DNA of 48,177 nucleotides, from positions 1 through 48,177 of the forward strand of contig JAKQIZ010000007.1 of assembly GCA_029561465.1 (NCBI GenBank), written 5' to 3'. Origin of the DNA: Deltaproteobacteria bacterium. GTDB taxonomy: Bacteria; Desulfobacterota; Syntrophia; Syntrophales; UBA8958. Below are positions 1 through 12,493 of the stretch, in pieces. The translations under genes were made by a program, and so were the position numbers. The notes below the pieces were generated by a model. It did no database searches. It was not told the DNA's origin and saw nothing but the letters and a program-made list of their open reading frames with translations. Each line of letters opens with the position of its first letter. Position 1 is the first letter of the stretch.

Positions 1-1808
1 CCGAAGGCCGAAGAAAACAGTTGCAGCCAGATGCCCGGGCCTTCTCTCTTCAGGGATTCCAGACGCCCTTCCGCCGCCAGGCGCTCGTATTCAAGGGGAC
101 GCTCGTGACGCATGGCCTCCAGGCGATAGCGGCCGGTGAACACATTCGGCTCCAGGGGAAACTTGTTGGGAACGAGATGGTTGTTGAAGAAATGGATAGT
201 AAAGATGAAGATCGCGGCCAGAAAAGCCTCTTCGGAGTGCACTACCGTGGCCACATTGATCATCCAGCCGGGCATGAGATAGGAGGCGAGTTCCGGAAAC
301 CAAAGGACGAACCCGGAACCGCCGATGGCAGTCATGCCCCAGAAGACGGCAAAAAAATCAAATTTTTCCCAGTAGGTCCAACGGTCGAACCGCGGCATCT
401 CCGCCCCGCCGAAAAACCATTTGAACATGCCGATGACGTCCCGTAGATCCTTCAGATTTGGGAAGAGGGAATCGGGACCGAAAAGCCGCCCCAACCACCC
501 TTTCATCTTCCCTCCCGGGAAGAGAAACCGCAGGGACAGCCACAGGGTATAAAGGAAAAGACCACAGAGGACCAGGGCCGCCACGCGGTGGCAGATGCCG
601 GCCCGATAGGCGCCTCCCCAGATATTGATCATGATTTTCGCCCAGGGGGAGTCGTAATACTTCAACGGGAATCCCGTCATCACCAGGGTAAAGAAGGAGA
701 GAATCAACAGGACGTGCATGATCCTTTCCTGCATGGAGAAACGCTGGATCTGCTTTTCCTCCCGGCACTCGGGCAGGAGGTGCTTTTCCACGAACCCAGC
801 TTTGGCCTCCGCGCACTTGTCGCGATAAGTACGCCACCACCAGAGAAGCGTATGGAGCCAGAAGAAGGCGAAGGTGCCTCCCAGCAAGGTAATCATGAAG
901 GCATTTGTCCAGTAGAGCACGGGGTGCCGCTTGGCATCCAGCGGATCGGGATGGGCAACAAAGGAAAGAAAACGGTCGTGGAAGCCCTGGTGGCAAGTGC
1001 CGCAGGCCTCCTTCATCCGGTCGGGATGCATGGCGGACAGCAGATGACCCCGAGGCAGGATGTTGTGGCCGCGGTGACAGTCGGCGCAGCCGGCCACCCG
1101 CTGGGGATAACCGATGTTGAAGACCTTGCCGTGATAGGTGTCGTCGAAGGTGGTTACGGCCTGTGTGGAAAAGCGGTTGCGCTTGTCCATCTTCGCGTCG
1201 TTATGACAGGAACGGCACCGGCGGGTGTAATTTTCCCGGGCAGCGGCAACATCCCTCTCCAGGGTGGGATCGTAATAAGGGGTGTCGTGCAGTCCGTGAC
1301 AGTCCACGCATGAGGCGGCATCGGCGTTTCCTTTGAGAAAAGAACCGCTGTGCCCCAAAAGCACATAATCCTGGGAATCATGGCACTGACAGCAATTATC
1401 CACCGCCGCCTTCTCGAGCTCCACCCCGGATTTCCGGATGGCGTGGATATCGTGATGGCAATCCTGGCACTGGAAATTCAATTTTAGATAATGGACATTC
1501 TTCTTGAAACGGGAGGCGATGTCACGGTGGCAGCTCGCACAATTCACCGGCGCCGGCGCGCTTTCGCCCGTCATATGGCGACCCAGGTCGCTGATTTCTC
1601 CATGACAGCTCACACAGGTGTTCTTACCGTGTGCCGAAGCGAGAAAGTCCTGTTTATGAACATTTTCATCATGACAGGACTGGCATTGGTGGATCAGCAC
1701 CTTTGTCTTCTCAACAGCCGCCAGGGAGAGATGGGCGGGGGTGAGCAACCAGCCTGCCAGGCAGAGCATCAACAGGAATCGGTGGGCGGTGGCCGGGATC
1801 CTGATCAT
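1..1808 (-). CDS. Multiheme cytochrome c / cytochrome b561-type membrane fusion protein (3' end beyond window)
   Basis: Open minus-strand frame from ATG at 1808 (MIRIPATAHRFLLMLCLAGWLLTPAHLSLAAVEKTKVLIHQCQSCHDENVHKQ...) to the window edge. About nine CXXCH motifs by manual translation, then hydrophobic segments (YWTNAFMITLLGGTFAFFWLHTLLWWW, RIMHVLLILSFFTLVMTGFPLKYY). Missing from the ORF track because it has no stop in the window. ATGA overlap with the upstream gene. Confidence 0.85.
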   Translation of the reverse strand, partial: MIRIPATAHRFLLMLCLAGWLLTPAHLSLAAVEKTKVLIHQCQSCHDENVHKQDFLASAHGKNTCVSCHGEISDLGRHMTGESAPAPVNCASCHRDIASRFKKNVHYLKLNFQCQDCHHDIHAIRKSGVELEKAAVDNCCQCHDSQDYVLLGHSGSFLKGNADAASCVDCHGLHDTPYYDPTLERDVAAARENYTRRCRSCHNDAKMDKRNRFSTQAVTTFDDTYHGKVFNIGYPQRVAGCADCHRGHNILPRGHLLSAMHPDRMKEACGTCHQGFHDRFLSFVAHPDPLDAKRHPVLYWTNAFMITLLGGTFAFFWLHTLLWWWRTYRDKCAEAKAGFVEKHLLPECREEKQIQRFSMQERIMHVLLILSFFTLVMTGFPLKYYDSPWAKIMINIWGGAYRAGICHRVAALVLCGLFLYTLWLSLRFLFPGGKMKGWLGRLFGPDSLFPNLKDLRDVIGMFKWFFGGAEMPRFDRWTYWEKFDFFAVFWGMTAIGGSGFVLWFPELASYLMPGWMINVATVVHSEEAFLAAIFIFTIHFFNNHLVPNKFPLEPNVFTGRYRLEAMRHERPLEYERLAAEGRLESLKREGPGIWLQLFSSAF

Positions 1809-2563
1809 GGTTTCCTCCGTTTGTTCCATTCCTGCCACGCCGCCATCCCTCCCTCCAGCCGGTACAGCTTTTCCAGACCCTTGCGGTGCAGATAGCCCGC
1901 GGCAAGAAAAGACCGGCTGCCGTCCTGATCGATGAGGAGCAGTGGGCGGTCCAAATAGATGTCCTGATAGGTATTGTGCAGAGAGGCCAGCGGCACGTTG
2001 ACGGCACCAGCAATGCTTCTCGATTTGAAATCCGCGGGCCGGCGAAGATCGACCAGCAGTGCCGAACTGTTGGCGGCCAGCCAGCTCTTCAGCTTTTCCG
2101 GTTTTACGGCCAGACCTTTTATCCGCGGGATCCGGTCGATGGTCTCTACCTCGAATCCGGATCTTTTCCAGGCCGTAAGCCCTCCCTTCAGGAAATAGAT
2201 CTTTTTGTAACCCCTGGTGCGGGCGGTCTGCACCAGTTCACACCCCGGAGCGGCGGTGGCATTGCCGTCGTAAAAGACTATCTTCGTCTCCCTGTCCCGG
2301 GGCCACTCTTCCGCCTTCGCCACCCCCTCTCCGCACTCCATGCAGAGCGAAGAGGGAATACGGGTGTCCAGGCATTCCAAATTACTTGCCACATTGATGA
2401 ACACGATCTTCTCGCGGTTGTCCAGCATCCAGACCACGGCCTGTGGTTCGACGAGCGCCGGCTTTTCGTCCGCAGCAAGGACGGCGGCCGGTATTCCCAG
2501 GCTCAGGACAAACAACAGTACCGCAATCATTGTCATTCCGTTATATTTCCTCATGACGCGCAC
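1805..2563 (-). CDS. Exported protein with two rhodanese-like domains, catalytic Cys apparently absent
   Basis: Signal peptide; rhodanese-like blocks (FLKGGLTAWKRSGFEVE; LLVDLRRPADFKSRSIAGAVNVPL...LEGGMAAWQEW). Active-site loops read VFYDGNATA and LLIDQDGSR. Confidence 0.8.
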   Translation of the reverse strand: MRVMRKYNGMTMIAVLLFVLSLGIPAAVLAADEKPALVEPQAVVWMLDNREKIVFINVASNLECLDTRIPSSLCMECGEGVAKAEEWPRDRETKIVFYDGNATAAPGCELVQTARTRGYKKIYFLKGGLTAWKRSGFEVETIDRIPRIKGLAVKPEKLKSWLAANSSALLVDLRRPADFKSRSIAGAVNVPLASLHNTYQDIYLDRPLLLIDQDGSRSFLAAGYLHRKGLEKLYRLEGGMAAWQEWNKRRKP

Positions 2564-2576
2564 CGGTTATTCTCCC

Positions 2577-4565
2577 TTACTCATAAGACGGCGTGCCCTT
2601 CAACCCCCACGACTCATACTGGGGTACGGCATTGGGATCTTTGAGCTGGGGATAATCGTCCTTGAGCATTCCCCGGAGATTCTTTATGGTCATTTTGTTG
2701 AAAAATGACGCCGTATCGCTGTGGCAGTCGCCGCATCCCTCACCGGCGCCTTTCGTCCCGTATGCCTGTTTCTTCGCCAGGGGGATGACGCCGTGTTCGA
2801 CGCCGTACATCACCGGCGGCCCCGGCAGTGGTGTCGCCTTCAACCCCTGGGTACCGGCCTGATAAACCCGGTCCGAAACGAACACCACCTCCCGGAAACC
2901 CAGTCCGGTCAACTGGCGCGACATCTTAATAATATCGTCATCCTTCACCACTGTCCAACGTTTCCCCTTATCCCCCCCCGGGAGACCCACCGTCAGCACC
3001 GACAAACCCGGAACGGCTTTCACCGCCTGAGCCACATACCTCAGGGGAATGGGACGGATCTCGCCACCGGCCTGTCTTTCTCCAAACCATTGCAGGTGTT
3101 TGGGAACGACGGGGGTATATTGCTCCCCCGCATCACCCTGTTTTCCCAATCTGGCCAGCCAGGGTTTCCAGGGTTCCTTTGCCGGGCGGTCGTAATCGGG
3201 AAGCCAGCGGACTCCCTCCAGATTGTCGGCGGTATAGCCGGTTTCCTGTCCGGCGCTCATGTCCAGGACCGCCATGCCCCTTCCCGGCTGAGCCACGCTG
3301 TGACAGCCACCGCAACTTATGAGATAGGTATGGAAGGACGCCTTGGCAAATTTGGCGAGATGCTTCTTCTGGGGATTTCTGGCCTCCCGGGAGGTCCTGG
3401 AAAGCGGCGCCGCATAACGGCCGCCGCCATGGCAGCCGACACAAGTTCTCATGCCCATTTCATCAAGATCATCCCGGACGGTATTGAGGGTGGAGTTTCC
3501 CTTGGCAATCTGATGGCGGAGACGTTCACTTGAGGATTTTCCCGCCAGGGGGTGACAGTCCGTACACGTCATGCCGGCGCGAAGATGAGCGTCAAATTCC
3601 GGATCGTGGCGTCCGCCGGTATTCTTGGCCTCTCCCTCGCCATGACACTGCAGACAATTCCGGTCGGCGACATGCTTCCTGATCACCTGACCCCGCAGAC
3701 GACCCTCCGGGGCGAACAGGCGCCGGTCCGTCCACCGGTAAGCCGTGACAGGCCGTTTGGAGAGATTCCACGTGCCCTCCCGGAAACCGGGATCACTGGG
3801 TCCCGCTCCCGGCCGGCTGTAAGTGAAAACAGCGCCACTGATTCTGCCGAGGCCGGCGCCGGCCGTGGCAGCCCAGCGGTAGTTGCGCCGGTTGAGCTGC
3901 TCATTCCGCTCGCGTAAACCGTAATCCGGCTTGTGGCAGAGGAGACAATCCGCCTCCACCACCCCGCTTTCCCGGAACCGGCTCTTTCCGTCCGGAGTCC
4001 AGAGAGAGCTGTAATCACCGTCGAATTTTTCTTTGCTGTGTTTTTCGCCCGCAGCGAGATTCCGGGTGAGGTCCGCCCGTCCTCCGGCGTCTCGGCCGTA
4101 TTCCATGGGTCCGCCGCCGGGATGGCACCAGCCGCAGGCCACGGCGGCAACCTTGCTTTTCCCTTCATATTTGCCGCCACCGATCCAGTCGTAGGTGGAT
4201 AGATCTATCTGCCGGAGATCCGTGTTTTTTTTGGCCGCCAGCCGGGCGGCGGCAGCCGTGGGGAGCCAGCGACCGAACATCCCCGGCGAAAGATGCCAGC
4301 GCCGCCTGGCGTCGAAGCGATCGTTTATCTTGTCGAAACCCTGCTGGAAATGGTATCCTATATTAATAACTGAATAATTATGGCATACACCGCAGGTTTT
4401 TCTGGGACTGTAGGGGTCGGAGTCGTTACGACCCGGGCTGATCCTGTCCCCCCGTTCATTTTTCAGCCAGACATCCCGATGCGTCCCAGCCGCCGCCTCT
4501 CCTGACCAGGAGATACCCAGGAAGATCATTACGAAGGCTATAATGAGGAGGTCAATTTTTTTCAT
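2577..4565 (-). CDS. Octaheme c-type cytochrome, exported
   Basis: Signal peptide plus CGVCH, CGWCH, CLLCH, CLQCH, CTDCH, CVGCH, CGGCH, CGDCH. Confidence 0.88.
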   Translation of the reverse strand: MKKIDLLIIAFVMIFLGISWSGEAAAGTHRDVWLKNERGDRISPGRNDSDPYSPRKTCGVCHNYSVINIGYHFQQGFDKINDRFDARRRWHLSPGMFGRWLPTAAAARLAAKKNTDLRQIDLSTYDWIGGGKYEGKSKVAAVACGWCHPGGGPMEYGRDAGGRADLTRNLAAGEKHSKEKFDGDYSSLWTPDGKSRFRESGVVEADCLLCHKPDYGLRERNEQLNRRNYRWAATAGAGLGRISGAVFTYSRPGAGPSDPGFREGTWNLSKRPVTAYRWTDRRLFAPEGRLRGQVIRKHVADRNCLQCHGEGEAKNTGGRHDPEFDAHLRAGMTCTDCHPLAGKSSSERLRHQIAKGNSTLNTVRDDLDEMGMRTCVGCHGGGRYAAPLSRTSREARNPQKKHLAKFAKASFHTYLISCGGCHSVAQPGRGMAVLDMSAGQETGYTADNLEGVRWLPDYDRPAKEPWKPWLARLGKQGDAGEQYTPVVPKHLQWFGERQAGGEIRPIPLRYVAQAVKAVPGLSVLTVGLPGGDKGKRWTVVKDDDIIKMSRQLTGLGFREVVFVSDRVYQAGTQGLKATPLPGPPVMYGVEHGVIPLAKKQAYGTKGAGEGCGDCHSDTASFFNKMTIKNLRGMLKDDYPQLKDPNAVPQYESWGLKGTPSYE

Positions 4566-4581
4566 CCGGATGAGCCATACA

Positions 4582-5823
4582 TTATCTGTTAATGGGCTTC
4601 GGGATCACGATCAGACGCTGATTCTCTTTGGAGCCGCCTCTGATCATCGTTTCCACGTCAAGAAAACGGGCCCGTTCGACGTGGCAGACATCGCAATTGC
4701 GGGTCCGCTCGGTACGTTTGCGGATGTTGTGCACCGGCGAGTCCCAGTAATTGGGCAGGGCGTCGAAATTCTCCATCTTAATCCCAGCCTTGACAAAGGT
4801 TTCCCGGACAGTGGGGATGAGACGCAGGGTGGTCAGGGTCTTCCGGTCCCTGGGATTCAGTCCCAAAAGCAACACCGGCTGGGAGGTGGCGCCCTTGCCG
4901 GCATGGCAGTCCTGGCACTGGCGATATGAGGTCGCGGTGTGACAACCGTAGCAGCTCACCTTGTCTTTGTGGCGCTTGTGGGATACCCGGGCCGTCAATT
5001 TCCCCTCCTGACCCAGTTTATGACAGTTACGACATGAGGGACGATCCCTGACCTCCTGCTTTGTCGCATAGGCTGTACCGTCGCCGTGGAATTCCGCTTT
5101 TTTATGGCAATCCATGCAGGCCATGCCCTTCTGGTAATGGACGTCGGGACTGCCGCCGTATTCTCCCGTATATTCAGGATAAACCCGGCCGCCATGACAG
5201 AAGGCGCAAGTTTTGCTCTCATCCTTCTTCACAAATTTATGCCGTTGAAACAGCCCCAGACCGATCCCGCCGATGGGTGGGGATTTCACGTGACAGTCGC
5301 CGCAGGAGGCGTGACAACTCCGGCAGGATTGCTCGAACACCTTCTTGTCGAAGGTTTTGAGTTCCTCCGGGGAAAACCTCGGCATGACGCCGTTTCTCTG
5401 TCCGGCAGTAGTGTAATGAAGTGATTTTGAATAGTTGTCTGCTATCTGACGGTGACACATCCCACAGGTGCGCAGATTATCGGAGGGTCGTTTGACCAGT
5501 CCCTGGTGTGCCGCTTCCTTGCCCTGCCCTTTTTCATTGCCTTTATGGCACAACCGGCAACCCATGCGGAAATGGGGATCCTTCTTGAGCAGATCCTTAT
5601 CCACCAGATAGCCCTTGTACATGTCTTCCGCCCTAACTGGCGGAGGCGCTCCCGCTCACCCCTCCCCCTCTTCCCCGGCGGTGACCGCCGGCTGTTTGTA
5701 GAGGGACTTCATCACCGCGTCGCTGGTGTGGCACTGGACGCAACTGCTGGCCTGAACCGGAATGACGGCGACGGACAGGGAAAAAAAGAAGAGCAGCACA
5801 TACAGGGTAACTGTTGATTTCAT
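4582..5823 (-). CDS. Eleven-heme c-type cytochrome with in-frame TGA at codon 56; candidate selenoprotein or interrupted gene
   Basis: ATG at 5823: MKSTVTLYVLLFFFSLSVAVIPVQASSCVQCHTSDAVMKSLYKQPAVTAGEEGEG[TGA]AGAPPPVRAEDMYKGYLVDKDLL..., same frame as the listed 346-aa ORF. One CXXCH before the TGA and ten after. Hairpin TCCGCC-AGTTAG-GGCGGA 12-29 nt after the TGA. Confidence 0.7.
5627..5658 (-). promoter_or_regulatory. Candidate SECIS element downstream of in-frame UGA in multiheme cytochrome
   Basis: UGA (minus 5658-5656), 11 nt, then 6-bp stem UCCGCC/GGCGGA with loop AGUUAG. Confidence 0.45.
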
Positions 5824-6217
5824 CTATCCTCCCATGTCTTCTTTAATAATATTTTTACATAAAGCACGGTAAAAAGTCAAAGTAATTCCGGGTTCCGGAC
5901 GGATTTTTGCCGCCCGTTGACATGATATTGCCATTGCCGGTAACTGATTCGGAACCGGCATCGGTATGGAGAACCTCGCCCGCTACATCATTCGGGCGCC
6001 TTTCTCACAGGATGCAGTACCTGGATCAGGAGGGGACGATTACATCGAAGCATAACGCAGCGAAAAAAGAGGCGTGCCGGAAAGGTCTGTCCAAAAAACA
6101 CCTCAAAATGCCTACCAGACTGGCAAGTCGCACAGAAAGAGAGCAGATGACGCCAGCAGGATCACCGCCGATCCACTTGCTGTGTATCCGCCCCTGGTTT
6201 TCCGATGGAAATATCCC

Positions 6218-6246
6218 TTGACACGAAAATACCGCGCTCCTATACT
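6218..6246 (+). promoter_or_regulatory. Sigma-70-like promoter for the plus-strand redox operon
   Basis: TTGACA (6218-6223), 17-nt spacer, TATACT (6241-6246). Confidence 0.65.
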
Positions 6247-6419
6247 CTAACCCATCAGAAGTAATGACTTATCAAACCGCTTTTCCACAGGGTCGCTTCC
6301 GGGGTATTCGCCCTATGTATTTTTCATCATTTGTCTTATGGACAAATGGAGTTCAATTCATTATCATAACCATCAAGAAACTTTCAAAGACGTCAAAATG
6401 CAGAGAGAAGGGGGGAAAG

Positions 6420-6836
6420 ATGATGAAAAGATTCAAGTATCCACTGTTCATCGCCGCGGCGCTGCTGGGCGTGTTCCTGGCCGCCGCCGTTTTTGCCGGG
6501 CATCCCGAAATACCGCGCATTTCTGTCGAAGAACTGAAGCAGCTCGTCGACGCCAAAGCCGAGGTTATCATTCTGGATGCCCAACTGAAGGAGATCTATG
6601 ACCGGGGGCATATCCGGGGGGCGGTGTCGTTTCCCTGGAAAGCCGAGGTCACCGATGCCGATGTGCCGATGTTTGCGAAGGATAAGCTGATCGTCACCTA
6701 CTGTGATTGCGGCCCCGGCGAATCGGACAGCGCCGATCTGGCCTTTCAGTTGCAGGGCCTCGGGTTCACGAATGTGAAGGTATTGGCCGATCCTGCCGTC
6801 AGGGGTTGGAAAAAGGCCGGCTATCCCATGGAGTGA
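6420..6836 (+). CDS. Exported rhodanese-like protein with active-site cysteine(s)
   Basis: ATG at 6420 after a GA-rich RBS; signal peptide MMKRFKYPLFIAAALLGVFLAAAVFAG; rhodanese pattern VIILDAQLKEIYDRGHIRGAVSFPW and IVTYCDCGPGESDSA. Confidence 0.85.
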   Translation: MMKRFKYPLFIAAALLGVFLAAAVFAGHPEIPRISVEELKQLVDAKAEVIILDAQLKEIYDRGHIRGAVSFPWKAEVTDADVPMFAKDKLIVTYCDCGPGESDSADLAFQLQGLGFTNVKVLADPAVRGWKKAGYPME

Positions 6837-6844
6837 GGTGCGAA

Positions 6845-7336
6845 ATGACGAAAAAGATCCCCATGCTATTACTGATCTTGGTGGGCGCCGCCGGCCTCGC
6901 CTTCTTCAGCGCCGTACCGGTCAGCCATTCCCAGCCTGAACCGGAGGGTTATGCCGGAGCAAACGCTTGCGCGATGTGTCACAGCGAGTTGACGGCCGGC
7001 TGGAAGACAACCCGCCACGCCCGGGCATTTGACACCCTGAAAAAGAAATCCCAGGAAAAACTCCCGGCTTGCGTCAAGTGCCACGTGGTGGGCTTCGAAA
7101 AACCCGGGGGATATGTGGATCAGGAGTTGACCCCCGAGCTGGCCGGGGTGCAATGCGAGTCCTGTCACGGACCGGCGGCCGCCCATGCCGCAAACCCGGC
7201 TAACAAGAAAGGTCTGATCGATCCCGGCGAAAAGACCTGTCGGGAATGTCACACCCCGGGGCAGGATCCGAAGTTCGACTATGCCGGTAAGAAACGCTTC
7301 GTCCACGGCGAAAGCGGGAAAGGAGGGGTTAAATAA
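6845..7336 (+). CDS. Tetraheme c-type cytochrome (cytochrome c554-like family)
   Basis: Signal peptide and four CXXCH (CAMCH, CVKCH, CESCH, CRECH); GVQCESCHGPAAAH pattern. Confidence 0.85.
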   Translation: MTKKIPMLLLILVGAAGLAFFSAVPVSHSQPEPEGYAGANACAMCHSELTAGWKTTRHARAFDTLKKKSQEKLPACVKCHVVGFEKPGGYVDQELTPELAGVQCESCHGPAAAHAANPANKKGLIDPGEKTCRECHTPGQDPKFDYAGKKRFVHGESGKGGVK

Positions 7337-7341
7337 ACGAA

Positions 7342-8061
7342 ATGAATAAAAGACCGTTGTCAATCCGGGGACTGCTGATTGCCCTGGCGCTGTTCGTCAT
7401 GACCGGCGCCGCCTTTGCCGCCGACAGCCTGCGCATCTCGCCCGTTCGGATCGAATGCGGCTTGATTGAGGAAGGGACGCCGGCGACCATGGTGGCCGTC
7501 GTGGAGAATATCAGCGGCAAAGAGGTGCGGATCACCGGCATCAGGACCAATTGAGCATGCACTGAGAGTGTGCTGGGACAGCACACCTTGCAGCCGGGAG
7601 AAAGAACGGAGCTGAAGGCCGTTTTCGACACCAAAAACGCCCCCGGCCCTTTTGAAAAAATCACCACCATCCAGACGGACGCCCCCGGACAGGAACAGAT
7701 CGAACTGGTCATGGCCGGCACGGTCAAAGAAGCGCCGGGGCCGAAGATCGCGGTATTGCCCCGCCGAACGGACCTGGGCGCCGTCAAGCCGGGGGAAGCG
7801 AAGCAGGTGAAAATCACGGTGACCAATCCGGGAGAACTGCCGCTAACAATCACCGCGGTGAAAGTCAGGCCGGGCGGCGCCATTGCCGCAGCGGCCGGAG
7901 CGTTGCCGGCGCAGATCGCCGCGGGACAGAAAGCCGAGCTGATGCTGATCATTTCCATCGGCAGACCCGGAACGTTTACGGAGCGCATTTCTCTGCAATC
8001 AAACGCCAAGAACGCCCCCAAAAGCGGTTTTGTGCTGATGGTTTCCGGCCGGGCGGAGTGA
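7342..8061 (+). CDS. DUF1573-like exported protein, predicted selenoprotein (Sec encoded by TGA 7552-7554)
   Basis: ORFs 7342-7554 and 7570-8061 share a frame: ...ISGKEVRITGIRTN[U]ACTESVLGQHTLQPGERTELKAVFDTKNAPGPFEK... DUF1573-style repeats; U falls on the first Cys of the usual SCGCT motif; perfect 7-bp hairpin downstream. Confidence 0.85.
7552..7592 (+). promoter_or_regulatory. Putative bacterial SECIS element (DUF1573-like gene)
   Basis: UGA 7552-7554; stem GTGTGCT (7568-7574) / AGCACAC (7580-7586), loop GGGAC (7575-7579); possible outer TGCA/TGCA pairing (7558-7561 with 7589-7592). Confidence 0.75.
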
Positions 8062-8143
8062 GTGCGGCCGGAATGATTCAAGAAGCGGAAAGAAGAAGAC
8101 TTTTCAACAAAACGTGGAAAAGAAAAAAACAAGGAGAAAGGTT

Positions 8144-9898
8144 ATGAAAACACGAACAAAATTCAGTGTCATGTGGCTGCTGGCGCTCGGCGTCTTTATC
8201 CTGACGCCGCTCGGCGCCTATGCCAAAGAGGCGATCCAGTCCTGGGAGCTCGTTAATCCCGCCGGGGTCGTCGAGGTAAAGTACTTCAAACCGGCGCCGC
8301 GCCTCACCTCTCTGGACGGTAAGACGATCGTCCTGAGATGGAACGAGAAGCATAACGGCGATTTATTTCTCAACCGGATTGCCGAGCTTCTCCAGAAAGA
8401 AGTTCCCACCGCCAAAGTGATCAAACTTTATGAAGTGGACAAATCCACAATCAAAATCAGCGGATCGGCCAAGGAGTCCAACCGGATCGCCGACGTGATC
8501 AAGGGTCTCAAGGCGGACATCGTCATCGCCACCCAGGCCGATTGAGGATCCTGCACCTCATGGCTGGTGGTCGACCAGTCCGAAGTAGAAAAACGCGGCA
8601 TCCCCACAGTTACCCTGGCGTCAAACCAATTTCTTTCCCTTGCTAAAAGCACCGTCAAAAGCACCGGCATTCCCGAGATGGCCTTTGTGGAATTCGAACA
8701 TCCGATGGGGATGATTCCCGCCGGAGAGGTCAGAGCGAAGGCCAATAAGGCCTTCCCGGAAATCATGAGAATGGCTACCAAATGGCAGCCGACGACTGCC
8801 GTGGCCGCGGCTGCGAAACCGCCCTATCCGGCGGAACGGATCAAGTTCAAAGGCACCTATGCCTCTCTGAACAAGATGTTTTATGAAAAAGGCTGGTCTC
8901 TGGGACTGCCGATAATCCCCCCGACCCCCGAGGCCGTAAAGGCCATGTTGAAGGGGACAAAGCACAAGCCCGGCGAAGTCGTCTGGGTCGTGCCGCCGCG
9001 GCAGGGCCAGTTGACCGTTGAGCTTGTGGCGACCATCGGCGTCATGGCCGGCTGCAAACCCGAGCATATGCCGCTGCTTCTCACCATCGTCAAGGTCCTC
9101 AAGGAACCGGACTTCGATTGGCGCGGCAACAGCACGACGACAGCACCCACGGCGCCGCTGCTCGTCATCAACGGACCGGTCGTCAAGGAACTGGGCATCT
9201 CCGCTTCCACGGGCGCCCTGGGTGGACAGATGCCGGTTAATATTTCCCTTGGCTATTTTGTCAATCTGGTCGGCGATATTGTCGGCGGCTCCGTGCCGCC
9301 TGATTCCGACAAGAGCACCCTGGGCAGCAGGGAGGATCTGGTGGCCATGGTGGTTGCGGAAAACGAGAGCCGGAATCCCTGGAAGCAATCCTATGCCGTA
9401 GAGCACGGATTCAAGGCAACCGACAGCGTCGTGACGGGTTTCGGCGCCTATATGGGGACGAACAACACGGATCACAACAGCGTCAAGGGGAAGGATCTCC
9501 TCAACACTTTTGCCGTGGGTCTGGCCGGCGCATCCTGCGGCATCACCTCATGCTATACCAGGCTGGATCAGCCGTCCACCTGGCAGAACGGCGTGAAGTT
9601 TGCTTTCCTCCTGGTCGGTCCCGAGCATGCCGACACCATGTACCGCGACTTTCCGACGAAGCTGGATGTCCAGAACTACCTCGTCAAGAAAGCGGTCCTG
9701 CCGTACTCGGGGTATTCACCGGGACAGTGCATCGTGCCCAAGGACTTCGGCCCTTACGATGAAAACACCATGTTTCCGCGGTTTACACAACCGGAGCAGA
9801 TCAAAATCGTCGTGACGGGCGGGTCGGGGAAGCAATCCCAGATATGGATTCCCTTCCTGACGGACAACCGGCCGGTATCGGCGGTTATGGAGAAGTAG
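8144..9898 (+). CDS. UGSC-type selenoprotein fused to a C-terminal domain of unknown function (Sec encoded by TGA 8543-8545)
   Basis: ATG 8144 with upstream AAGGAG; signal peptide MKTRTKFSVMWLLALGVFILTPLGAYA. ORFs 8114-8545 and 8567-9898 share a frame: ...GLKADIVIATQAD[U]GSCTSWLVVDQSEVEKRGIPTVTLASNQFLSLAK... U-G-S-C motif; hairpin downstream. Confidence 0.88.
8543..8581 (+). promoter_or_regulatory. Putative bacterial SECIS element (UGSC gene)
   Basis: UGA 8543-8545; stem CTGGT (8564-8568) / ACCAG (8574-8578), loop GGTCG (8569-8573), extended by GG/CC across a one-base bulge. Confidence 0.72.
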
Positions 9899-9918
9899 CT
9901 TCACTTGTGGCATTAAAC

Positions 9919-9947
9919 ACGGAGGGGGACCATTCGTCCCCCTCCGT
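9919..9947 (+). terminator. Strong intercistronic hairpin, terminator or attenuator
   Basis: ACGGAGGGGGAC-CATTC-GTCCCCCTCCGT: 12-bp perfect stem with 5-nt loop, followed by TATTCTCT. Confidence 0.6.
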
Positions 9948-9968
9948 TATTCTCTCAGGAGCGGGAAA

Positions 9969-11261
9969 ATGAAGCGGAGCAAAAAAAAATCCTTCTGGGG
10001 CGCTGTTGCCGCCGGCTTGCTTATCCTTTGCCTGTCGGCGCCCGCCGCGGCGGCGCCGCGCACCGTCGAGGTTTACAATCCCGCCGGTCAACAGCCCGAC
10101 GGGGTCTATGTGGACACTATCCTGAAGAAAATCATGGATGAAACCGGCGTGAAGCGACCGCTCCTGGCCGGGAAATTCACCGGGGTAAAGAAGGAGCGGA
10201 TCGGCATCCGCCATGATGAGTTCTCCGAGGTAAGCGAGTGGTTTTACCTGCGGGGATGGACCGACGGACTTCCCATCGTGCCGCCGACGGAACGACGGGT
10301 AAAGGAGATGCTGAAGGGTACGGACCTGCCGGCCGATTTTCTCGTGGCCAATCTTGACCCCATGGGCGGGCAGGCGACGGTGGAAAAGATCGCCGTCAAT
10401 GCCGTAATGGCGGGCTGCCGGCCCGAATATATGCCGGTGCTGATCGCCGCGGTAGAACTGGCGGCCAGACCGGAGTTCGACTTGAAGGGTCTGGCGACGA
10501 CCACCAACCCCGATGCGCCGCTGCTGATCCTGAGCGGCCCCATTGTGGAACAGCTCGATGTCAATGCGGGAACCAACACCCTGGGACGGGGCTGGCAGGC
10601 CAATGCCTCCATCAGTCGGGCTCTCCACCTGATCATCCAGAACATCGGCGGCAGTTGGCCGGGCGTGACGGATATGTCCACCATCGGCCAGCCGGGGGAT
10701 TTCGTCATGATGCTGGCGGAAAACAGCGCCGCCAACCCCTGGGGACCGCTGCACATGGAACTGGGGCACCCCCGGGCGGCAAACGTCCTGGCCGTCATGG
10801 CCGCTGAGGGGACCCACAGCATTCTCGGGATCGGTCAGTCCGACGAGGGGTTCCTCAAACTGGTCGCCGCCCATCTGGCGGGGCTGGAAAGACCCTACCG
10901 CGAGACGATGCTGCTGATCATCGCCCAGGATACGGCGAAGATGCTGGCCGACAAGGGATGGACCAGGGAAAGGATGATCGCCTACATCACCGACCGGGCG
11001 AAGATCCCCTTCCGCCTGTACAAGGAACGCTATCTCGATTCGTCGGCGCTGCGGAAGGGCATGCCGGACTGGGTCTTCCGGGTGCAAGATCCCGATGCCA
11101 TGATCCCCAGCCCCCTGATCGGCAAACTGTTGATTCTCGTCGCCGGCGGCACGGGCGAGAAGAGCACCCTCATTCCGGGCTGGTATGATGCGGGCATCAT
11201 GAGCAAGGAGATACGCCTACCGGCGAACTGGGACGAGCTGCTGCCGAAGAAAAACCCCTGA
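9969..11261 (+). CDS. Exported paralogue of the C-terminal domain of the UGSC protein, without UGSC motif
   Basis: Signal peptide; WFYLRGWTDGLPIVPPTERRVKEMLKGT...QATVEKIAVNAVMAGCRPEYMPVLIAA aligns by eye with MFYEKGWSLGLPIIPPTPEAVKAMLKGT...QLTVELVATIGVMAGCKPEHMPLLLTI in 8144-9898. Confidence 0.8.
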   Translation: MKRSKKKSFWGAVAAGLLILCLSAPAAAAPRTVEVYNPAGQQPDGVYVDTILKKIMDETGVKRPLLAGKFTGVKKERIGIRHDEFSEVSEWFYLRGWTDGLPIVPPTERRVKEMLKGTDLPADFLVANLDPMGGQATVEKIAVNAVMAGCRPEYMPVLIAAVELAARPEFDLKGLATTTNPDAPLLILSGPIVEQLDVNAGTNTLGRGWQANASISRALHLIIQNIGGSWPGVTDMSTIGQPGDFVMMLAENSAANPWGPLHMELGHPRAANVLAVMAAEGTHSILGIGQSDEGFLKLVAAHLAGLERPYRETMLLIIAQDTAKMLADKGWTRERMIAYITDRAKIPFRLYKERYLDSSALRKGMPDWVFRVQDPDAMIPSPLIGKLLILVAGGTGEKSTLIPGWYDAGIMSKEIRLPANWDELLPKKNP

Positions 11262-11367
11262 CCCGCCAGCGAGGGAGGGCTTAGCCCCATCCCCACCCCG
11301 ACCCCCCCTTGAAGGGGAGGGAGATTTGCGACTTTTGCGAGATCGCCAAGGATGACGCCCGGAGAGG

Positions 11368-12126
11368 CTATTTTTTCCAGACAAACTGTTCCTGCTCCAC
11401 CTGCGCCGGATCCACGCCCAGGCTCTCCAGCTCTTTCAGGGCGGTGTCCATCATGGGGGGCGGACCGCAGACATAGCAGGCGGCGTTTTCCTTCACGCCA
11501 TGCTTCTTCATGATCTCGGCGCTCAGCCGGCCTTGTTCATACTTCACCCCCGGAATGCGGGCGTCGAAATAGCTCTGTACGTCATCTTCCCGGCTCAGGC
11601 AATGGACAACGTTGAGCGGCAGCTCGCCGGTCATCGCGGCAATTTCCTCCCGGCAGAAGACATCGGCGAGAGTCTTGTTCGACCAGAAGAGGATAACCCG
11701 GTTTTTGGCCCCGCAGTTGCGGAAGTGCCTCAATACGCTGAGAAAAGGTGTGATGCCCACGCCTCCGGCCAGCATGACGATCTCCGGTCGGTCGTCAATC
11801 CCCTGGCAGAAAACACCGAGAGGTCCGATCACCTTCACCGGCGTCCCCGGCGTCAGGGAGGGGATGGCGGAAGTGAAAACGCCTTCCTTTTTGATGGTCA
11901 GTCGCAGGAGGTTATCCTCCGGGGCGGCGGAAATGGTGAAAGGGTGCGGTTCGCTCCAGCCCTCTGCGGCCGGAATCCTGATGGAGACGAACTGGCCGGC
12001 TTTTCTGGCGGTGAACTTCTCATCCTTTCCCTCCAGAAAGAGCGAGTTTACATCACTATTTTCCCCGGCCACCCGGACCACTTTCCAGATGTTTTTTTCT
12101 TCACTTGCGGTATTTGCTGAAGCCAT
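11368..12126 (-). CDS. FAD/NAD(P)-binding oxidoreductase (ferredoxin reductase-like)
   Basis: FNR motifs: EPHPFTISAAP, IVMLAGGVGITPFLSVLRHF, AACYVCGPPPMMDTALKELESLGV. Start taken as MASANTASEEKN. Confidence 0.85.
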   Translation of the reverse strand: MASANTASEEKNIWKVVRVAGENSDVNSLFLEGKDEKFTARKAGQFVSIRIPAAEGWSEPHPFTISAAPEDNLLRLTIKKEGVFTSAIPSLTPGTPVKVIGPLGVFCQGIDDRPEIVMLAGGVGITPFLSVLRHFRNCGAKNRVILFWSNKTLADVFCREEIAAMTGELPLNVVHCLSREDDVQSYFDARIPGVKYEQGRLSAEIMKKHGVKENAACYVCGPPPMMDTALKELESLGVDPAQVEQEQFVWKK

Positions 12127-12223
12127 TGCGGAACCTCCTCGTGATTTAGGCAAAGATATTAACATATCTTTATCACGGAGCACATCGTTATTTACTCCGG
12201 AACACCGAAAATGGCGGGCAATG

Positions 12224-12435
12224 TCAGCGGCGCCGGTAAACGATCCGCTTGCCGGCCGACACCAGGATGTAGGCCAGACCGGCAATGACGATGGTCATCG
12301 CCCCAGCGGGAAGATCCGGCCTATAGCTGACCGCCAGACCGGCCGTGGTGAAAAAGGGGGATCATCCAGAGATCCCGGGGCGAGACCATCAGGATGCTGC
12401 CGAAAAGATAACTCATCAGATCTTCGCCATAGCCG
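12224..12435 (-). pseudogene. Remnant of ABC-3 family (ZnuB-like) metal transporter permease
   Basis: Two frames of one degraded gene: GYGEDLMSYLFGSILMVSPRDLWMIPLF, then FTTAGLAVSYRPDLPAGAMTIVIAGLAYILVSAGKRIVYRRR-stop; most of the gene is missing. Confidence 0.5.
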
Positions 12436-12493
12436 GGGGTCCGGGATCAGAAGTAATGTCTTATCAAACATCCTGTCTTTCAATAATACGTGC

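Follow-up and report, generated by a model that had tools for sequence, protein, structure and literature searches.

A selenocysteine-containing DUF1573 clade encoded beside a tetraheme cytochrome in Desulfobacterota and Acidobacteriota

Results

A cluster of five genes with two in-frame UGA codons

The window, which is the whole 48,177-nucleotide stretch of DNA analysed here (Deltaproteobacteria bacterium, contig JAKQIZ010000007.1), carries five plus-strand genes in the order rhodanese, tetraheme cytochrome, DUF1573 protein, UGSC protein and exported homologue of the UGSC C-terminal part. The rhodanese (6420-6836) is predicted to be exported and has a C-D-C in its active-site region. It is followed by an exported tetraheme c-type cytochrome of the PF13435 family, cytochrome c554-like (6845-7336), which lies 5 nt upstream of the DUF1573 gene. 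This immediately upstream cytochrome was absent from the sequence-only reading of the locus. The DUF1573 gene (7342-8061) encodes, as judged from its reading frame, its orthologues and an AlphaFold2 model, a two-domain selenocysteine (Sec)-containing protein of 239 amino acids with an N-terminal signal peptide and the motif U71-A72-C73. Downstream lies a gene for a UGSC-family selenoprotein (8144-9898; PF24696, E 1.2e-36; NF041046, 125.2 bits against a cut-off of 125) with its own UGA at 8543-8545. Its C-terminal domain is shared with the product of the next gene (9969-11261), an exported protein that has neither Sec nor a family match and is 84% identical in the related locus L127. The shared domain carries the signature G-W-x-x-G-L-P-I-(I/V)-P-P-T and occurs in the window both fused to UGSC and as this separate exported gene, with no Pfam or NCBIfam match.

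The DUF1573 gene is interrupted by a single in-frame UGA

The DUF1573 frame starts with the ATG at 7342, ends with the stop codon at 8059-8061 and reads M...TGIRTN-TGA-ACTESVLGQHTLQPGERTELKAVFDT...RAE-stop; the TGA at 7552-7554 corresponds to residue 71 of a 239-residue product if it is read through as Sec. The N-terminus has a hydrophobic stretch ending in ...GAAFA-ADS. The Pfam DUF1573 domain (PF07610) spans the UGA, covering residues 36-128, and the whole protein scores 89.2 bits against a cut-off of 26.1; a second, weaker DUF1573 match lies in the C-terminal half. A six-frame search of the genome recovered the DUF1573 match with "1 TGA" inside. The in-frame TGA noticed in the sequence-only reading is thus confirmed by both the frame and the domain match across it. 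In the alignment, the U-A-C of the window (T-N-U-A-C-T) falls on the C-G-C of the [ST]-C-G-C motif in Cys homologues, which agrees with the earlier placement of U on the conserved first Cys, with the second Cys two residues later.

Comparably long open frames joined across a TGA occur at 16 places in the G+C-rich window. Since such frames are not rare here, an open frame across a TGA on its own is weak evidence for Sec, and it is the homologues that carry weight.

A conserved bSECIS-like hairpin follows the UGA

A hairpin lies just behind the UGA on the plus strand (7568-7586), with stem arms at 7568-7575 and 7579-7586 and the loop GGA at 7576-7578. The stem GTGTGCT/AGCACAC around a GGGAC loop, as described earlier, is exact in its letters, and one further G-C pair extends it to 8 bp and shortens the loop to GGA. 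The UGA-to-loop spacing is 21-22 nt and the loop starts with G, in keeping with the bSECIS rule of a UGA-to-loop distance of 16-37 nt and a G first in the loop (PMC13188914). Only 0.3% of codon-order shuffles of the same stretch equal the hairpin score.

Across ten aligned sequences of the branch described below, the position of the hairpin is identical and free of gaps. Two-sided changes occur in five of the eight pairs and amount to 15 cells against a shuffle mean of 5.2, and none of 500 shuffles reaches 15. The hairpin is lost when the pairing partners are slid against each other in this alignment, and RNAalifold, unaided, returns the same 8 pairs. The alignment excludes locus L169, which has a stem of the same kind (TATGCTT GGC AAGCATA). 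An Rfam search near the hairpin returned no matching family, with chance-level matches only.

Selection past the UGA and the Sec machinery of the genome

Downstream of the UGA, the window and L126 differ by 103 changes at third codon positions against 41 and 41 at the other two (2.5x). Over the same part of the gene, dN is 0.17 and dS 1.33 between L126 and L127, and dN is 0.12 and dS 1.26 between L128 and L130; where dS could be estimated, dN was much the smaller of the two. The sequence past the UGA thus evolves as protein, under purifying selection.

The window genome encodes a tRNA-Sec (77.4 bits, TCA anticodon), and tRNA-Sec, SelA and SelD all score above their cut-offs. SelB is present as fragments split over contig ends, with a score below the cut-off; the genome is a fragmented assembly with an estimated contamination of 5.6%. 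Two SelD genes were found, each with an in-frame TGA (G000:C115:4991-5920 and G000:C75:1199-2125), and in view of this contamination they are either two copies or a sign of mixed strains.

Two ordinary explanations of the UGA have to be weighed against these results. Because Cys homologues carry TGC or TGT at this codon, the TGA could in principle mark a Cys DUF1573 gene broken by mutation to TGA, that is, a pseudogene or a sequencing error. The same TGA is found in all 11 branch members, which come from independent assemblies, the hairpin is conserved and purifying selection continues past the UGA; these observations rule such a defect out for practical purposes, and we give it almost no chance. 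A genome-wide code change that assigns tryptophan or some other amino acid to UGA is just as improbable, since tRNA-Sec, SelA and SelD are all in the genome and the U column aligns with Cys. For practical purposes it is excluded by the normal use of TGA as a stop in this genome: within the window, for instance, the rhodanese and DUF1573 genes both terminate at a TGA. The reading of TGA 7552-7554 as a Sec codon in a genuine selenoprotein gene is well supported.

The protein belongs to a distinct branch of Sec-DUF1573

The branch to which the window protein belongs comprises 11 loci: the window, L118/L069, L126-L133 and L169. Three of them were found via DUF1573 itself, namely the window, L118/L069 (genome G105) and L169 (G375), and the eight loci L126-L133 through a cytochrome search of named assemblies; G481 and G449 duplicate the records of L126 and L127, each of which is counted once. 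L126 comes from a Syntrophaceae bacterium, L127 from a "Deltaproteobacteria" bacterium, L128-L131 from four Acidobacteria, L132 from a Desulfobacteraceae bacterium and L133 from Desulfoplanes sp. The ten relatives of the window with the conserved UGA thus belong to Desulfobacterota and Acidobacteriota. Recurrence of the same stop codon in other genomes had been set as a test of the Sec reading, and TGA stands at the aligned codon in 11 of 11 loci, in the column of the first Cys of the CGC in Cys homologues, followed by A-C, S-C or G-C. No Cys form was found within the cytochrome-paired clade.

A tree computed from 71 DUF1573 domains places the ten branch members that it contains together on one side of a split supported at 100/99; the tree is built on few columns, and the long branch leading to the clade limits inference of its sister group.

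Searches of the genus-mates returned no DUF1573 relative, the protein used alone as query matched nothing in named genomes, viral contigs yielded no relative, and among plasmid records only one turned up, with a distant DUF1573. The window is collinear with the congeners compared only from about 12,490 onward, and positions 1-12490 are missing at the same place in those congeners. Besides the Sec cluster, this stretch encodes a double rhodanese and two multiheme cytochromes on its minus strand. Since collinearity begins only past it, the Sec cluster looks like an accessory stretch or island in the genus. A mis-binned contig is unlikely, as the Lon gene in the collinear part is 95% identical to that of a congener.

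The cytochrome gene is the constant neighbour

In all 11 branch loci the DUF1573 gene directly follows a tetraheme cytochrome c554-like gene; this pairing is by construction in the eight loci found via the cytochrome and independent in the window, L118 and L169. In the cytochrome-found loci the cytochrome is given by construction but the UGA-bearing DUF1573 gene is not. The cytochrome-alignment search returned 30 loci, in which a DUF1573 gene with the UGA stands beside the eight closest cytochromes and not beside the more distant ones. The cytochrome-DUF1573 pair is the sole constant of the neighbourhoods compared. No paper describing this pairing was found among open-licence papers.

The best NCBIfam model for the window cytochrome is the C-terminal stretch (about 399-519) of the UshA-like (seleno)protein NF041198 (CxU; PCGU), at 131 bits. 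In NF041198 the cytochrome-like part lies within the selenoprotein, whereas in the window it is a separate gene. A cytochrome module of this type thus accompanies a second Sec protein as well, which lends some side support to the redox role proposed below.

Around the pair, the neighbours vary. L127 reproduces the five-gene order of the window, L126 carries the full set but with the last two genes placed ahead of the others, and L169 has the first four in order, the available stretch ending inside the UGSC gene. Genes for rhodanese, cytochrome and DUF1573 are present in L129 and L131; in L129 a UGSC gene is additionally encoded on the opposite strand. The rhodanese accordingly occupies the same position as in the window in L126, L127, L129, L131 and L169, and the pair has no rhodanese next to it in L118, L128, L130, L132 and L133. 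The pair, the C-D-C rhodanese and the UGSC selenoprotein occur together in three families of the phylum. The UGSC protein (PF24696, NF041046) is an unrelated protein of a known family, encoded by the next gene; its own UGA is also kept in relatives, the U being conserved in L126, L127 and L169. The best NCBIfam match of the window rhodanese is the rhodanese-related (seleno)protein NF041203 (CxU), which shares the C-x-C/U spacing, but the window protein has Cys in place of Sec and scores 59 bits against a cut-off of 115. Its C-D-C may represent a third site of the cluster that other lineages fill with Sec.

In L118, L132 and L133 the pair is preceded by a PF03601 membrane protein, a YeiH-like putative sulfate exporter. 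Ahead of this protein, all three loci encode an exported protein of about 970 residues that belongs to no family (L118 4265-7171, L132 1005-3926, L133 325-3231). L118 and L133 have a small helix-hairpin-helix protein in between, and L118 has two arylsulfotransferase genes farther upstream.

Sec-DUF1573 across the phylum and its known catalogue

When 395 genomes from the same phylum were searched with PF07610, 188 of them had matches. Many matches contain exactly one TGA, and among the matches listed none contains TAA or TAG, the other stop codons that would have pointed to pseudogenes. We extracted 53 TGA-bearing DUF1573 genes from 52 loci, a set that includes L069 of the window's own branch. 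The alignment with homologues that had been proposed as a check puts U in one column in 53 of 53, at the first Cys of C-G-C and mostly as U-G-C, and nine Cys DUF1573 genes have C-G-C at the same position. With U at the first Cys throughout this set, Sec-DUF1573 is common in the phylum. It is far commoner there than the two GOS cases of 2008 suggest, with at least one gene in many genomes. Tandem DUF1573 genes were seen in two genomes of one family, as Sec plus Sec in L077 and Sec plus Cys in L090, a pattern that possibly reflects a recent exchange between Sec and Cys.

The sequence-only reading had left open whether such proteins were already catalogued. They are: OS_HP2 corresponds to pfam07610 with a U-x-C motif (PMC2398784), and a DUF1573 selenoprotein with a UGC motif is included in later surveys (PMC9312934, PMC13188914). 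Both surveys cite a 2007 paper on the delta symbiont of Olavius algarvensis, from which the family was first reported (reference 63 in PMC9312934). Sec-DUF1573 itself is therefore not new, having been catalogued since 2007-2008. Our literature search found no biochemistry for any DUF1573 selenoprotein.

Like OS_HP2 (NCBIfam NF041425), the window protein has a DUF1573 domain in which Sec takes the place of the first Cys of CGC, giving U-x-C. It differs in scoring only 51.4 bits against the NF041425 cut-off of 100, in falling into the separate clade described above (100/99 support), in having two tandem domains with a cytochrome gene directly upstream, and in the residue between U and C, which is A or S in the branch (G in one member). 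All 10 aligned branch members match NF041425 (best E 2.1e-19), and 7 of the 9 other Sec-DUF1573 proteins scanned pass its cut-off. By sequence, the branch is best described as a separate variant of the catalogued Sec-DUF1573.

The Sec site is predicted to lie on an Ig-like domain

The AlphaFold2 model shows two beta-sandwich domains with a mean pLDDT of 87; with a pTM of 0.64, the relative arrangement of the two domains is unsure. U71-A-C73 sits in the turn that links strand 62-69 to strand 74-77. Fold comparison retrieved Ig domains of the ASH/HYDIN/CEP192 type and 2qsv, a Porphyromonas gingivalis protein of unknown function; such resemblance in a model does not tell the function. The predicted fold is thus Ig-like and not a thioredoxin fold. 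A search for solved structures with a sequence match to the window protein found none. An analogy, though no more than that, is the N-terminal domain of DsbD: also Ig-like and periplasmic, it bears two cysteines that act as a redox pair, yet it is of another family and spaces them differently.

Discussion

Going beyond the computed features, we infer redox cycling of the U-x-C pair, with the cytochrome as its electron partner and sulfur as its substrate. The proposal of a periplasmic redox role arises from the signal peptides of all five products, recognized by eye, together with the heme protein and the sulfur-related neighbours. The DUF1573 protein itself would be periplasmic on the strength of its signal peptide.

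We then propose a mechanistic model. The UGA at 7552-7554 would be decoded as selenocysteine through the bSECIS hairpin just behind it, yielding an exported protein with two Ig-like (ASH/HYDIN-type) domains and U71-x-C73 in the first. U71 and C73 would form a reversible selenenylsulfide, which could take electrons from, or give electrons to, a periplasmic sulfur compound or a thiol/persulfide partner; candidates for such a partner are the C-D-C rhodanese and the UGSC selenoprotein. The electrons would be exchanged with the tetraheme cytochrome encoded directly upstream. We consider it fairly probable that the protein is such a periplasmic Ig-like redox protein, its U71/C73 swapping electrons between sulfur compounds and cytochrome, while gene adjacency is not proof of electron transfer.

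Metal binding and sulfur carriage are the two serious alternatives to redox cycling. In the first, the U-x-C would act as a ligand for a soft metal or metalloid such as mercury, copper or arsenic, with cytochrome and rhodanese belonging to a detoxification set. Several bacterial selenoproteins, SAO and related systems, have been proposed as metal ligands (PMC13188914), and the U-x-C spacing would suit two-coordinate binding. What makes this rather unlikely is the company the gene keeps: its strictly kept partner is a tetraheme cytochrome, the other neighbours are sulfur-related, and the loci compared show no metal transporter or reductase conserved beside the pair. The sulfur-related neighbours would also fit a sulfur carrier resembling the Ig-like SoxYZ: the rhodanese would load U71 with sulfane sulfur or a thiosulfonate, to be handed on to the cytochrome or to UGSC. 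Consistent with this are the Ig-like fold, the rhodanese adjoining in five other loci and the three loci in which a putative sulfate exporter adjoins the pair. We nevertheless regard it as unlikely. No Sox gene was noticed in the cluster, and the rhodanese is missing beside the pair in five of the loci. SoxY carries its Cys on a C-terminal tail, whereas U71 of the window protein is placed in an internal turn.

If the redox reading is correct, the cytochrome and the dedicated Sec-DUF1573 clade might together constitute an undescribed periplasmic electron-transfer module of Desulfobacterota and Acidobacteriota, joined in some lineages by the C-D-C rhodanese and UGSC for a sulfur or other chalcogen compound; we put this wider reading forward tentatively. 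Since the clade falls below the cut-off of the existing model, standard annotation would truncate its members at the UGA. Its Sec site would sit on an Ig-like beta-sandwich rather than on a thioredoxin fold. Sec-DUF1573 has been catalogued for nearly two decades without a function, and the clade tied to the cytochrome offers a concrete, testable partner.
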